Of a DNA stretch of 64,000 nt, positions 2,528 through 5,967 are shown piece after piece. The DNA is from an uncultured Spirochaetaceae bacterium (GTDB taxonomy: Bacteria > Spirochaetota > Spirochaetia > Sphaerochaetales > Sphaerochaetaceae), in contig OMYY01000013.1 in NCBI GenBank assembly GCA_900315435.1, positions 1 through 64,000 of the forward strand, given 5' to 3'. Positions within the stretch are counted from its first letter, which is position 1; each line of letters starts with the position of its first letter. The position numbers and the translations under genes are program-made. The notes under the pieces were generated by a model. That model was not told where the DNA came from. It was given only the letters and a program-made list of their open reading frames with translations, and did no database searches.

Positions 2528-3205
2528 TTACAGGTCGAGCAAGGTCTTGTCCCCGTGAATGTTCCTCCAGCTGGCCTTGCAGCCGTTGGTCACCTTGTCC
2601 ACTACCGGCAGGTCAAGCGACGCGGTCAGAAGGTCGGGATTGACCGAAACTGCGTCCGCACCTGATTCGTAGGCGGTGACCACCTGGTCGATCGAATGGA
2701 ACCCGACAGCCAGGATACGGGCATAGCACTCGTCGTCGTGGTGGATGATCGAGGTAAGCCGATGGAGCATGTCGCTGGCGTTGATGCCAGCCTCTTCCAT
2801 CCGCTGGTATTCGCATAGCAGGTAGTCCGCTCCCGCCATGGCGGCCAGCAATCCCTGGATCGGGGTAAGGATACAGGCCGCGGTCACGTTGACCCCCTCA
2901 TGGGAAAGTTCCCTGATCGCCTTCATCCCTTCCCGGGTGGCGGGAATGCGGATATAGGTGTCACGCCCCAGCATGTCGCGGATCTTGTCGGTCTCGGCTA
3001 TGATGCCGGCATAAGTGGTCGATACCACCTGCACGTGGATGGAGCGGGAACCGATGATGCCGCGGAGCTTCTGCAGATGGGAAAAGAAATCCACCGGACC
3101 CTCCTTCTCCATGACGGAAGAACAGGTGGTGATTCCCGTGACCGGGAAGAGGTCGATGGCGTTTTCGACCGATTCGAGATGGGCGCTGTTCAACAATAAT
3201 TCCAT
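2528..3205 (-). CDS. Transaldolase/fructose-6-phosphate aldolase-like protein with altered active site
   Basis: 225 residues, the length of the FSA/TalC family of class I aldolases, and similar along the whole chain (GITTCSSVM, HVQVVSTT, TYIRIPATREGMKAI, AGADYLL). Key residues differ from E. coli FSA: the Schiff-base lysine, in VVKVPVT, is arginine here (R86, codon CGC); Asp6 is Asn; the Asn two residues after Thr26 is Cys28; the Tyr near 131 aligns with Glu. Gln59 and Thr26 are kept. It may be a pseudoenzyme or have a changed chemistry; ordinary aldolase activity is doubtful. GAGGAT precedes the ATG. It is a single gene, downstream of the aldo/keto reductase on the same strand. Confidence 0.85.
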   Translation of the reverse strand: MELLLNSAHLESVENAIDLFPVTGITTCSSVMEKEGPVDFFSHLQKLRGIIGSRSIHVQVVSTTYAGIIAETDKIRDMLGRDTYIRIPATREGMKAIRELSHEGVNVTAACILTPIQGLLAAMAGADYLLCEYQRMEEAGINASDMLHRLTSIIHHDDECYARILAVGFHSIDQVVTAYESGADAVSVNPDLLTASLDLPVVDKVTNGCKASWRNIHGDKTLLDL

Positions 3206-3261
3206 GGTAGGATCCTCTGTACTATCGCCCAGTATAGCACAGAGAACCCCCTCATGGTTCT

Positions 3262-4365
3262 TTATCGTTGGTCCGAGAAGGCTGCACGCACTTCGTCAAA
3301 CAGCTCCGGGATGGACAGATGCTGGGGACAGGCCTTGGCGCACTTGTGGCAACGGATGCACTCGCTGGGCTTGTGGGCCTGCATGTCGTAGCTCTGCTGG
3401 AAGCGGGCGTGCATGGCAGGGAAGAGCGCCTGCTGGTTGTACAGTTCGAAGAATTTGGGAATCTCGATGCCACGAGGACAGCCGGCGACGCAATAGCGGC
3501 AGGAGGTACAGCCGATCTTCACGGTCTTTCTCAGATATTCGCGCACCCGCGCGATGCGTTCCATTTCCTCGGCATCCAGCGGCTCGAGATGGTTGAAGGT
3601 CTCGACATTCTCCTCTACCTGCCGCATCGAGTGCATGCCGCTGAGAATCATCTCCACCCCCTCAAGCTGGGCGACAAAGCGCAGGCCCCAACGGGCATCC
3701 TCTCCCCCACCCAGCATCGCATGGGCCTCGGGAGGAAGGTTTGCCAACAGGCCGCCTTTCAGCGGCTCCATCACCCACACCTTCCGTCCGTGGCGGAGAA
3801 CCGTCTCGTAGCAAAGACGCGACTGAACCTTCGGATCATCCCAATCCAGGTAGTTCAGCTGGATCTGGACGAACTCCAGCTCGGGGTGTTCGGACAAAAT
3901 CTTGTCCAGCACGGCAGCCGAGTCGTGAAAGCTCATGCCCAAGTGGTGGATCAACCCCTTGTCCTTCAGCCCTTTGACAAATGCGAAACCACCAAGACGG
4001 TTGGTATCCTCGTATCTTTGCCCGTTCATCGCATGCAGCAGGTAGTAATCGAAAAAGCCGGCCTGGGTACGGGAAAGCTGCTCGTCCCAAATCCTCTGGT
4101 AGTCCTCGCTCTTCTGCACGAAGCGAAGCGGCATCTTGTCTGCCAGCAGGAAGGAAGAACGGTCGTGGCGCCCAACCAGCACCTTCCCGACGGCTTTCTC
4201 GCTGGTCTGCCCGTGGTAAGGATAGGCAGTATCAAAATAGCGATATCCCTGTTCGAGAAAGACATCGGCCATCTGCAGGAACTGGTCCAAATCTATCTGG
4301 TCGTTCTTGCCGTCGACGACAGGCAACCGCATGCAGCCGAATCCCAATCGTTTCCACTCGTTCAT
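3262..4365 (-). CDS. Aldo/keto reductase with C-terminal two-[4Fe-4S] ferredoxin domain
   Basis: 367 residues. The N-terminal barrel has the AKR features: YFDTAYPYHG with Asp and Tyr, LADKMPL with the catalytic Lys, YYLLHAMN with His. The C-terminal 90 residues carry two cysteine clusters, CTSCRYCVAGCP and CIRCHKCAKACP, as in the ferredoxin-linked AKR subfamily (COG1453). It probably reduces a carbonyl using electrons passed through Fe-S clusters; the substrate is unknown. Its ATG overlaps the stop of the upstream gene in an ATGA, so the two are translationally coupled. Confidence 0.92.
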   Translation of the reverse strand: MNEWKRLGFGCMRLPVVDGKNDQIDLDQFLQMADVFLEQGYRYFDTAYPYHGQTSEKAVGKVLVGRHDRSSFLLADKMPLRFVQKSEDYQRIWDEQLSRTQAGFFDYYLLHAMNGQRYEDTNRLGGFAFVKGLKDKGLIHHLGMSFHDSAAVLDKILSEHPELEFVQIQLNYLDWDDPKVQSRLCYETVLRHGRKVWVMEPLKGGLLANLPPEAHAMLGGGEDARWGLRFVAQLEGVEMILSGMHSMRQVEENVETFNHLEPLDAEEMERIARVREYLRKTVKIGCTSCRYCVAGCPRGIEIPKFFELYNQQALFPAMHARFQQSYDMQAHKPSECIRCHKCAKACPQHLSIPELFDEVRAAFSDQR

Positions 4366-5126
4366 CTCACACTCCTTCGCACCAGCGTCATGATCCGATG
4401 CATCACTTCTTCTTCCTGTGCCCTGGCGATCGTCACAGCGCAGGATTCCACAACATCCCCGACATGGACCAAAAGGCTCCCCAACACCCTTGCCATTTCC
4501 TTCATGTCCTCACTGAAGGGCTGGTCCTCGTAGCTGACCACCAGATCCGCCCCTCCGGTATCCCATGCAAGCAGATCCACAAGCCCCTCTGACGCATAGG
4601 ATGCAGAAAGGGAAATGCAGGCCTCCCAATTGAACCGGTCGGCAGCTTCCTTGGCCCCATTGCGGCAAAGGGCGGTGAAAGCGCCAGCTTCGTACACAAG
4701 CCTCTCCAGCCTTTCGGGGGCATTCACCAGAAGGACTACCCGGTCTCGCAGCAGGTCCTCCGGCCTTCCCGAAGGAGCAAGGCCGTAGAGTGAGCTGACC
4801 CCGAGGCCGCAGCACGCCTCATCGTAGTCGGTTCCCAAGCCGAAAGGCACTCCCCCCAACAAGACCGAAGCAGGATACAGTTGGCGCGCTTTCCCGTACC
4901 GGGCAAGCTGTTCCTTCCAGTGGGGAATCGAGGAGACCTCCAGGGGAAGGTCGTCAAAGACGAACTCGGGCATCTCCACCGAACCGGCGTGGACGAACAG
5001 ATGGTGGCAGGTGGCCCTGGCAAGAAGGGCGCTATAGGCATGTGGTCGCATATGGTCCAGCATATCACCAAAGCTTTCCTCTGTCTTGCTTGCGTGCTCC
5101 TCCGCTTTGTCCCATACTGGATTCAT
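4362..5126 (-). CDS. Conserved-looking protein of unknown function, coupled to the AKR
   Basis: 254 residues from the ATG at 5126, which has AGGTGG nine bases upstream (5136-5141); a longer start at 5168 would lie deep inside the divergent gene. I recognise no family. It is soluble, has several Cys (HLF, ACCGLG, LCRNGAK regions) but no spaced Fe-S motif, and a central stretch PASVLLGGVPFGLGTDYDEAC that is glycine-rich. Its stop overlaps the AKR start (ATGA), which suggests a common task, perhaps in delivering substrate or electrons. Its start codon shares the palindrome CATG with the start codon of the divergent CPBP gene. Confidence 0.8.
   Translation of the reverse strand: MNPVWDKAEEHASKTEESFGDMLDHMRPHAYSALLARATCHHLFVHAGSVEMPEFVFDDLPLEVSSIPHWKEQLARYGKARQLYPASVLLGGVPFGLGTDYDEACCGLGVSSLYGLAPSGRPEDLLRDRVVLLVNAPERLERLVYEAGAFTALCRNGAKEAADRFNWEACISLSASYASEGLVDLLAWDTGGADLVVSYEDQPFSEDMKEMARVLGSLLVHVGDVVESCAVTIARAQEEEVMHRIMTLVRRSVR
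5090..5118 (+). promoter_or_regulatory. Predicted promoter giving a leaderless CPBP mRNA
   Basis: TTGCGT at 5090-5095, spacer 17, CATACT at 5113-5118; the ATG at 5125 comes six bases later, where transcription would start. Confidence 0.45.
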
Positions 5127-5967
5127 GGACATATTCCACCTGAAGGCGGTTCTGGCAAGTTTCCTCACCTATCTGGTCTGGATCCTGCTTACCCCTTTCT
5201 GCCTTCGCTTGTTCCGCATCATTCCGCTTCCCGAACCCATGGCGACCTACCTGGGTACGATCGGCAGCTCGATTGCCATGGCGATCGGGGTGCTGTTCAG
5301 CGCCCGGGTATTGATGCGGAAGCCGTTGCTTGCCTGCATCAGCGACCGGCCCTGTTTCGCCCGTTTTCTGGTGCCTTTTCTCTGCGGTATCGGCTGTTTC
5401 TCCCTGTTCACCCTGCTGCGTATCGCCCTCGCCCCAAGCCACTTCACCTGGCAGGCGCCCAAGGCAGGCACCTATTGCTCCATGCTCCTTCTCGTGCTGG
5501 TGATGAATACCATCCAGTGCGCCAGCGAGGAGTTCATGATACGGATTTTTCCCAGCCATGCCCTGCCGGACCGGCTGGGCAGCAGTCTGCTTTGTACCCT
5601 GCTGTTCCTCCTTCCCCATTTGGGGAATGTCGAGCTGAAAGAAGGCAACACCGTCCTTGTCCTGTTCTCCTACGTCCTTTTCGGATTCTGGGGCACGTGG
5701 GAAAGCCTTGCCGAGGGGGGCTTCGGGTACTCGCTTGGCATCCACATGGCAAACAACCTGGTCGTTTCCCTCCTGGTCGGATACGAGTCCACAGCACTGC
5801 GCACCTACCCGATGTTCATGACTTCGGAGCGGAGCGGCAACCTGGGAGAGCTTTTGGCCCTCGTCGCCACCCTTGCCTTCTCCTCGTTGTTCAGCCGACA
5901 TGTTTTAGCCTATACTCTGAACCATCATGGCAAGCAAACAGAAGCAAACGACAAAGCCCGGAGCTAG
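5125..5967 (+). CDS. CPBP (CAAX protease/bacteriocin-processing) family membrane protease
   Basis: 280 residues with about eight hydrophobic segments from the N-terminus on. The CPBP/Abi2 motifs are present: CASEEFMIRIF (EExxxR, glutamate metal-site motif), LFLLPHLGN (second motif with His), and SLGIHMANNL (H-x-x-x-N). These are intramembrane metalloproteases; the bacterial substrate is usually unknown. I start it at 5125, not at the TTG at 5086, because a promoter -10 sits at 5113-5118 and the longer form would place coding sequence inside the promoter. Its end overlaps the nuclease gene by 41 bases. Confidence 0.88.
   Translation: MDIFHLKAVLASFLTYLVWILLTPFCLRLFRIIPLPEPMATYLGTIGSSIAMAIGVLFSARVLMRKPLLACISDRPCFARFLVPFLCGIGCFSLFTLLRIALAPSHFTWQAPKAGTYCSMLLLVLVMNTIQCASEEFMIRIFPSHALPDRLGSSLLCTLLFLLPHLGNVELKEGNTVLVLFSYVLFGFWGTWESLAEGGFGYSLGIHMANNLVVSLLVGYESTALRTYPMFMTSERSGNLGELLALVATLAFSSLFSRHVLAYTLNHHGKQTEANDKARS
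5887..5916 (+). promoter_or_regulatory. Predicted promoter of the nuclease gene, inside the CPBP gene
   Basis: TTGTTC at 5887-5892, spacer 18, TATACT at 5911-5916. The nuclease ATG is ten bases further on, so the leader would be about three bases. Confidence 0.45.

Follow-up and report, generated by a model that had tools for sequence, protein, structure and literature searches.

The window, a 64,000-nucleotide stretch of a contig from an uncultured Spirochaetaceae bacterium, carries the genes and features listed in Table 1. One of the genes encodes a protein with the fold of fructose-6-phosphate aldolase (FSA) and TalC, in which an arginine occupies the site of the Schiff-base lysine. Its reading frame is uninterrupted, as the first-pass annotation had stated when it called the gene intact. 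The gene lies 56 nt behind that of an aldo/keto reductase, with which it may be co-transcribed, and is convergent with the enolase gene. The next ORF upstream gave no match in searches of Pfam and NCBIfam. Its 5' part overlaps an ORF on the opposite strand (5086-5967), its dN/dS is 0.20, and its start is probably located further in.

Table 1. Features of the lysine-less FSA/TalC-fold locus, in coordinates of the window
Feature	Position	Strand	Evidence
Lysine-less FSA/TalC-fold protein, 225 aa	2528..3205	(-)	ORF, Pfam TAL_FSA, predicted structure, dN/dS
Codon GGG, Gly168 at Ser166 site	2702..2704	(-)	Alignment, orthologue codons
Codon GAA, Glu132 at catalytic Tyr131 site	2810..2812	(-)	Alignment, orthologue codons
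Codon CGC, Arg86 at Schiff-base lysine site (E. coli Lys85)	2948..2950	(-)	Alignment; CGG in orthologue; mid-strand in model
Codon TGT, Cys28 at Asn28 site	3122..3124	(-)	Alignment, orthologue codons
Codon AAC, Asn6 at Asp6 site	3188..3190	(-)	Alignment, orthologue codons
Putative leader hairpin over Shine-Dalgarno AGAGGA (3213-3218) and start codon	3202..3257	(-)	Folding energy, orthologous leader
Aldo/keto reductase with C-terminal 4Fe-4S ferredoxin domain, upstream gene	3262..4365	(-)	Pfam Aldo_ket_red 119 bits, Fer4_9; synteny with G002
ORF overlapping reductase start by 4 nt, true start uncertain	4362..5168	(-)	ORF list; family searches

The protein is a member of the TAL_FSA (FSA/TalC) fold family. 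It scored 74.5 bits against the Pfam model (PF00923), well over the curated cut-off of 27, and a phmmer search of PDB sequences aligned nearly its whole chain with E. coli FSA (1l6w, 78.3 bits) and with the transaldolase of Thermoplasma acidophilum (80.4 bits), in agreement with its first description as transaldolase-like. A (beta/alpha)8 barrel such as that of class I aldolases was predicted at high confidence (mean pLDDT, 95.3), and the top match of the model among PDB structures was again E. coli FSA, with a TM-score of 0.93 at ca. 25% identity. On the other hand, the protein falls short of the models that define the enzyme itself, scoring 201.8 bits against the nearest curated model (PRK12656, “fructose-6-phosphate aldolase”; cut-off, 214) and 111.3 bits against the TIGR00875 equivalog (cut-off, 246).

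In the enzyme of E. coli, covalent catalysis is carried out by Lys85, and mutation of this residue leaves no activity; protons are shuttled mainly by Tyr131, and the donor pocket is lined by Asp6, Asn28, Gln59, Thr109 and Ala129 (PMC13259622). We aligned 81 family members with MAFFT, using the E. coli sequence as the anchor. The alignment reproduced what had been read by eye in the first-pass annotation, i.e., Lys85 to Arg86, Asp6 to Asn6, Asn28 to Cys28, Tyr131 to Glu132 and a conserved Gln59, and added four changes that had been missed there (Thr109 to Ala110, Ala129 to Leu130, Ser166 to Gly168 and Lys168 to His170). Seven of nine pocket residues are replaced, and only Gln59 and the phosphate-contact Arg134 (Arg135 in the window protein) are left; among the shuttle and pocket residues Tyr131, Asp6, Asn28, Gln59 and Thr109, Gln59 is the sole survivor. 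By comparison, 29 of 30 non-redundant lysine-bearing relatives hold all seven pocket residues that are conserved at ≥90%, and the remaining one alters a single residue. Within the window protein itself, the excess of changes in the pocket is suggestive and weak when taken alone (7/9 against 22/55 non-pocket sites at an 80% conservation threshold, P = 0.067; 5/7 against 10/26 at 90%, P = 0.2), because other conserved sites have changed too, several of them conservatively.

The first-pass annotation had allowed for a lysine elsewhere in the pocket taking over the same role. The position of the lysine does vary among aldolases, being on strand beta-6 in KDPG aldolase and DERA and on beta-4 in FSA. 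This variety, together with the retained fold, would speak for a Schiff-base aldolase with its lysine supplied from another place. In the predicted single-chain model, Arg86 sits mid-strand on beta-4 (residues 84 to 88), and none of the seven lysines (residues 34, 46, 74, 95, 204, 210 and 220) is found on any strand of the barrel, all being in helices or loops. With Tyr131, Asp6 and Thr109 lost as well, a relocated lysine seems very unlikely. Since there is no lysine at the site or on any other barrel strand, and most of the partner residues have changed, the alignment and the model strongly support the loss of FSA/transaldolase Schiff-base chemistry, upholding the original claim that the catalytic lysine and other catalytic residues are gone. 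A protein unable to form the lysine imine would be neither an FSA nor a transaldolase.

Among described systems, the best family match, over the full length, is the TalC-type FSA subfamily (NF009299; PRK12656), which occurs, e.g., in operons for the sorbitol PTS in Ligilactobacillus and Enterococcus. The window protein has in common with it the fold, Gln59, Arg134 and the C-terminal ...HGDKT(L/I)LDL tail, and is up to 46% identical to lysine-bearing spirochaete members of this type, but Lys85, Asp6, Asn28, Thr109, Tyr131 and Ser166 are all missing and there is no PTS operon. Compared with E. coli FsaA (PDB 1l6w and variants), the predicted fold is alike, whereas Lys85 and Tyr131 and the Asp6/Asn28/Thr109 network are replaced. 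The Lys86Ala variant of the T. acidophilum transaldolase (PDB 3s1w) has the same fold, and it too lacks the lysine and still folds; in that case, however, the loss of a single residue was engineered, while here seven pocket residues have changed naturally.

A second species of the genus (G002) has a syntenic orthologue (L022/L063) with 96% identity and identical residues at all the pocket replacements. Base-calling error is excluded because these same residues, in a separate assembly, are written with synonymously different codons (CGC/CGG for Arg86, TGT/TGC for Cys28 and GGG/GGA for Gly168). The two genes differ at 66 codons, only 9 of them amino-acid-changing and none of those at the tabulated pocket sites. 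Their dN/dS is 0.036, tighter than that of the neighbouring reductase gene (0.062) and near that of enolase (0.019), with two further ORFs at 0.17 to 0.20. The gene is functional, and its pocket replacements have been maintained by purifying selection across the two species. Decay towards gene loss or an artefact of sequencing, as the long branch and the many replaced conserved residues might suggest, is already contradicted by these values and is hardly credible.

This is the only TAL_FSA gene found in the window genome (96.6% complete), and G002 also has just one. Mixed decamers with a non-catalytic subunit could be envisaged, FSA proteins being decameric (PMC13259622). Such an arrangement could hold in genus g3 of the same family, where most of the genomes with these proteins combine a lysine-bearing copy with a lysine-less one. 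For the window protein it is most improbable because the genome lacks a second TAL_FSA gene; moreover, a cysteine replaces Phe209, a residue of the C-terminal helix that is otherwise nearly invariant. Among the functions proposed in the first-pass annotation, a scaffold, taken as a non-catalytic subunit of an active decamer, becomes unlikely in this way, while a regulator and an enzyme with different chemistry both fit the sequence. To judge from the gene list, in which Transketolase_N and PFK genes number three each, this organism may run the non-oxidative pentose phosphate pathway without transaldolase, e.g., via sedoheptulose bisphosphate.

Of 139 genomes surveyed in the taxonomic family, 55 carry a homologue. 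In a tree of 81 proteins, the window protein and its G002 orthologue form a pair at the end of a long stem of their own, with 1.17 changes per site. The lysine has been lost in four places of this tree, and the starred branches force at least three; losses within the family therefore number at least three and, most parsimoniously, four. Besides the window pair (Arg), they comprise a clade of second copies in g3 (15 members, Ala or Ser), three proteins of g16 (Arg) and a single protein of G109 (Glu). AU tests rejected a shared origin of the window pair with the g16 group (P = 0.0006) as well as with the g3 clade (P = 0.0046), with the caveat that long branches weaken such tests. The losses that could be tested are under purifying selection, with dN/dS values of 0.038 to 0.085 for lysine-less pairs of g3 and g16, similar to lysine-bearing controls (0.040 to 0.052). 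A clade sharing the arginine, which the first-pass annotation had proposed to look for, does exist, but it is narrow: Arg86 plus the other pocket changes are common only to the window species and G002, and the other lysine losses are separate events. A third genome assigned to the genus (G001) has a lysine-bearing homologue at an unrelated locus; the best match to the reductase in that genome is only 49% identical and lies ca. 100 kb away from it. The enolase gene of this genome (G001:C14:3270-4554, L153) seems split into two overlapping frames, by a frameshift or an assembly error.

The lysine-less paralogues of g3, g16 and G109 resemble the window protein in the loss itself and differ from it in their separate origins and in a mostly preserved pocket (Asp6, Asn28 and Ser166). 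The g3 second copies (L025, L026, L064, L066, L068 and L078-L090) have Ala or Ser at the lysine, Phe at Tyr131 and an otherwise near-complete pocket; they are under strong purifying selection and divergent from an AraC-type regulator gene. Their neighbourhoods, inspected by eye and partly with Pfam, include a convergent FGGY sugar kinase and a split transketolase in several genomes. In the separate K-to-R group of g16 (L101:8298-8969(-), L102 and L103), Thr26 is replaced by Ile and the gene is beside that of mannose-6-phosphate isomerase. The G109 protein (L091:9007-9681(-)) has Glu at both the lysine site and Arg134, and its gene adjoins an FGGY kinase and a DeoR-like regulator; this genome additionally has a lysine-bearing copy (L067). 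No close viral relatives of the window protein were found, phage and plasmid matches staying below 60% identity, and the lysine was kept in all six records examined (a Salmonella FSA and five that belong to the TalC type or come close to it). The FSA of an Enterococcus raffinosus megaplasmid (L125:4001-4672) has Thr at Asn28 and retains the lysine.

The leader of the window gene, taken as the gap plus the start codon, is predicted to form a hairpin of 22 pairs (−32.6 kcal/mol, z = −6.0), with both the Shine-Dalgarno sequence and the AUG base-paired in it. G002 keeps the hairpin in its orthologous leader (z = −3.2). Between the two there is one two-sided pair change (G-U to U-A), other pairs are held via one-sided changes, and a few outer and upper pairs differ, so that conservation is suggested by two sequences and one two-sided change. 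The inverted repeat is present in a single copy in the window genome, and the leader had no family match in Rfam. The gene had been credited with a leader of its own. A 56-nt gap with a strong hairpin is indeed there, but no sigma-70-like promoter was found in it. The hairpin could serve in translational control or, alternatively, as a DNA operator.

Taken together, catalytic residues have been lost, the predicted fold has been kept intact and the gene, the sole TAL_FSA gene found in its genome, is under purifying selection close to that on enolase. We consider the window protein an FSA-fold pseudoenzyme whose most likely role is that of a regulatory protein binding a ligand (probability of roughly 0.55); very probably, its function is not the aldol reaction implied by its annotation. 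The separate, selected losses in the family show that this fold has been kept repeatedly without the lysine. The pocket may have been rebuilt around Arg86 and Glu132, perhaps as an ion pair, with Cys28, Asn6, Gln59, Arg135 and His170, and may bind a sugar-like ligand, small and probably phosphorylated or anionic, that is not turned over, the protein acting as a sensor or regulatory partner. The hairpin, by hiding the Shine-Dalgarno sequence and start codon, would keep translation low until opened by ribosomes finishing the upstream reductase gene or by a hairpin-binding factor. Some features do not sit easily with this proposal. Ser166 and Lys168, which help hold phosphate in relatives, are both replaced, and therefore the pocket may bind phosphate weakly. 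The protein has no attached DNA-binding domain, and the clade is known from two sequences only. The long stem indicates a changed function and does not give its direction.

The same Arg86, Glu132, Cys28 and His170 pocket would also fit an enzyme with a different, imine-free chemistry, e.g., an isomerase, epimerase, lyase or hydrolase with a sugar-like substrate, which we regard as the main rival, possible although not the favoured explanation. Glu132, Cys28 and His170 are candidate acid/base groups or metal ligands compatible with new catalysis, and Arg86 could hold an anionic group. Several ionisable pocket residues fixed between both species, the strong purifying selection, the adjoining redox enzyme gene and the retention of Gln59 and Arg134 would agree with such an enzyme. 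However, we found no recognised catalytic or metal motif in the protein, there is no metabolic operon around the gene, and two sequences lend little depth to the conservation of the pocket residues. The ligand-binding pseudoenzyme remains our preferred reading.

Natural lysine-less FSAs or transaldolases were not found described in the open literature, which is weak evidence, subscription journals being outside the scope of the search. For the window species, the consequence is a genome in which no classical transaldolase or FSA gene was found. Databases label near relatives of the window protein as aldolase. Lysine-less paralogues such as L085:9459-10133(-) (228 bits) and L064:6426-7100(-) (254 bits) are above the PRK12656 cut-off and would be named fructose-6-phosphate aldolase; genomes will therefore be credited with an activity that these proteins almost certainly lack. 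More speculatively, and with some doubt on our part, the FSA barrel might have been turned at least three times, probably four, within this spirochaete family into lysine-less sugar-phosphate sensors or enzymes with a new imine-free reaction. The window protein would be the most remodelled of those observed, its pocket being of an Arg/Glu/Cys kind and its translation controlled by the hairpin. The repeated and selected loss of this lysine, confined here to a single family of aldolases in a single family of bacteria, represents a natural experiment in enzyme conversion.
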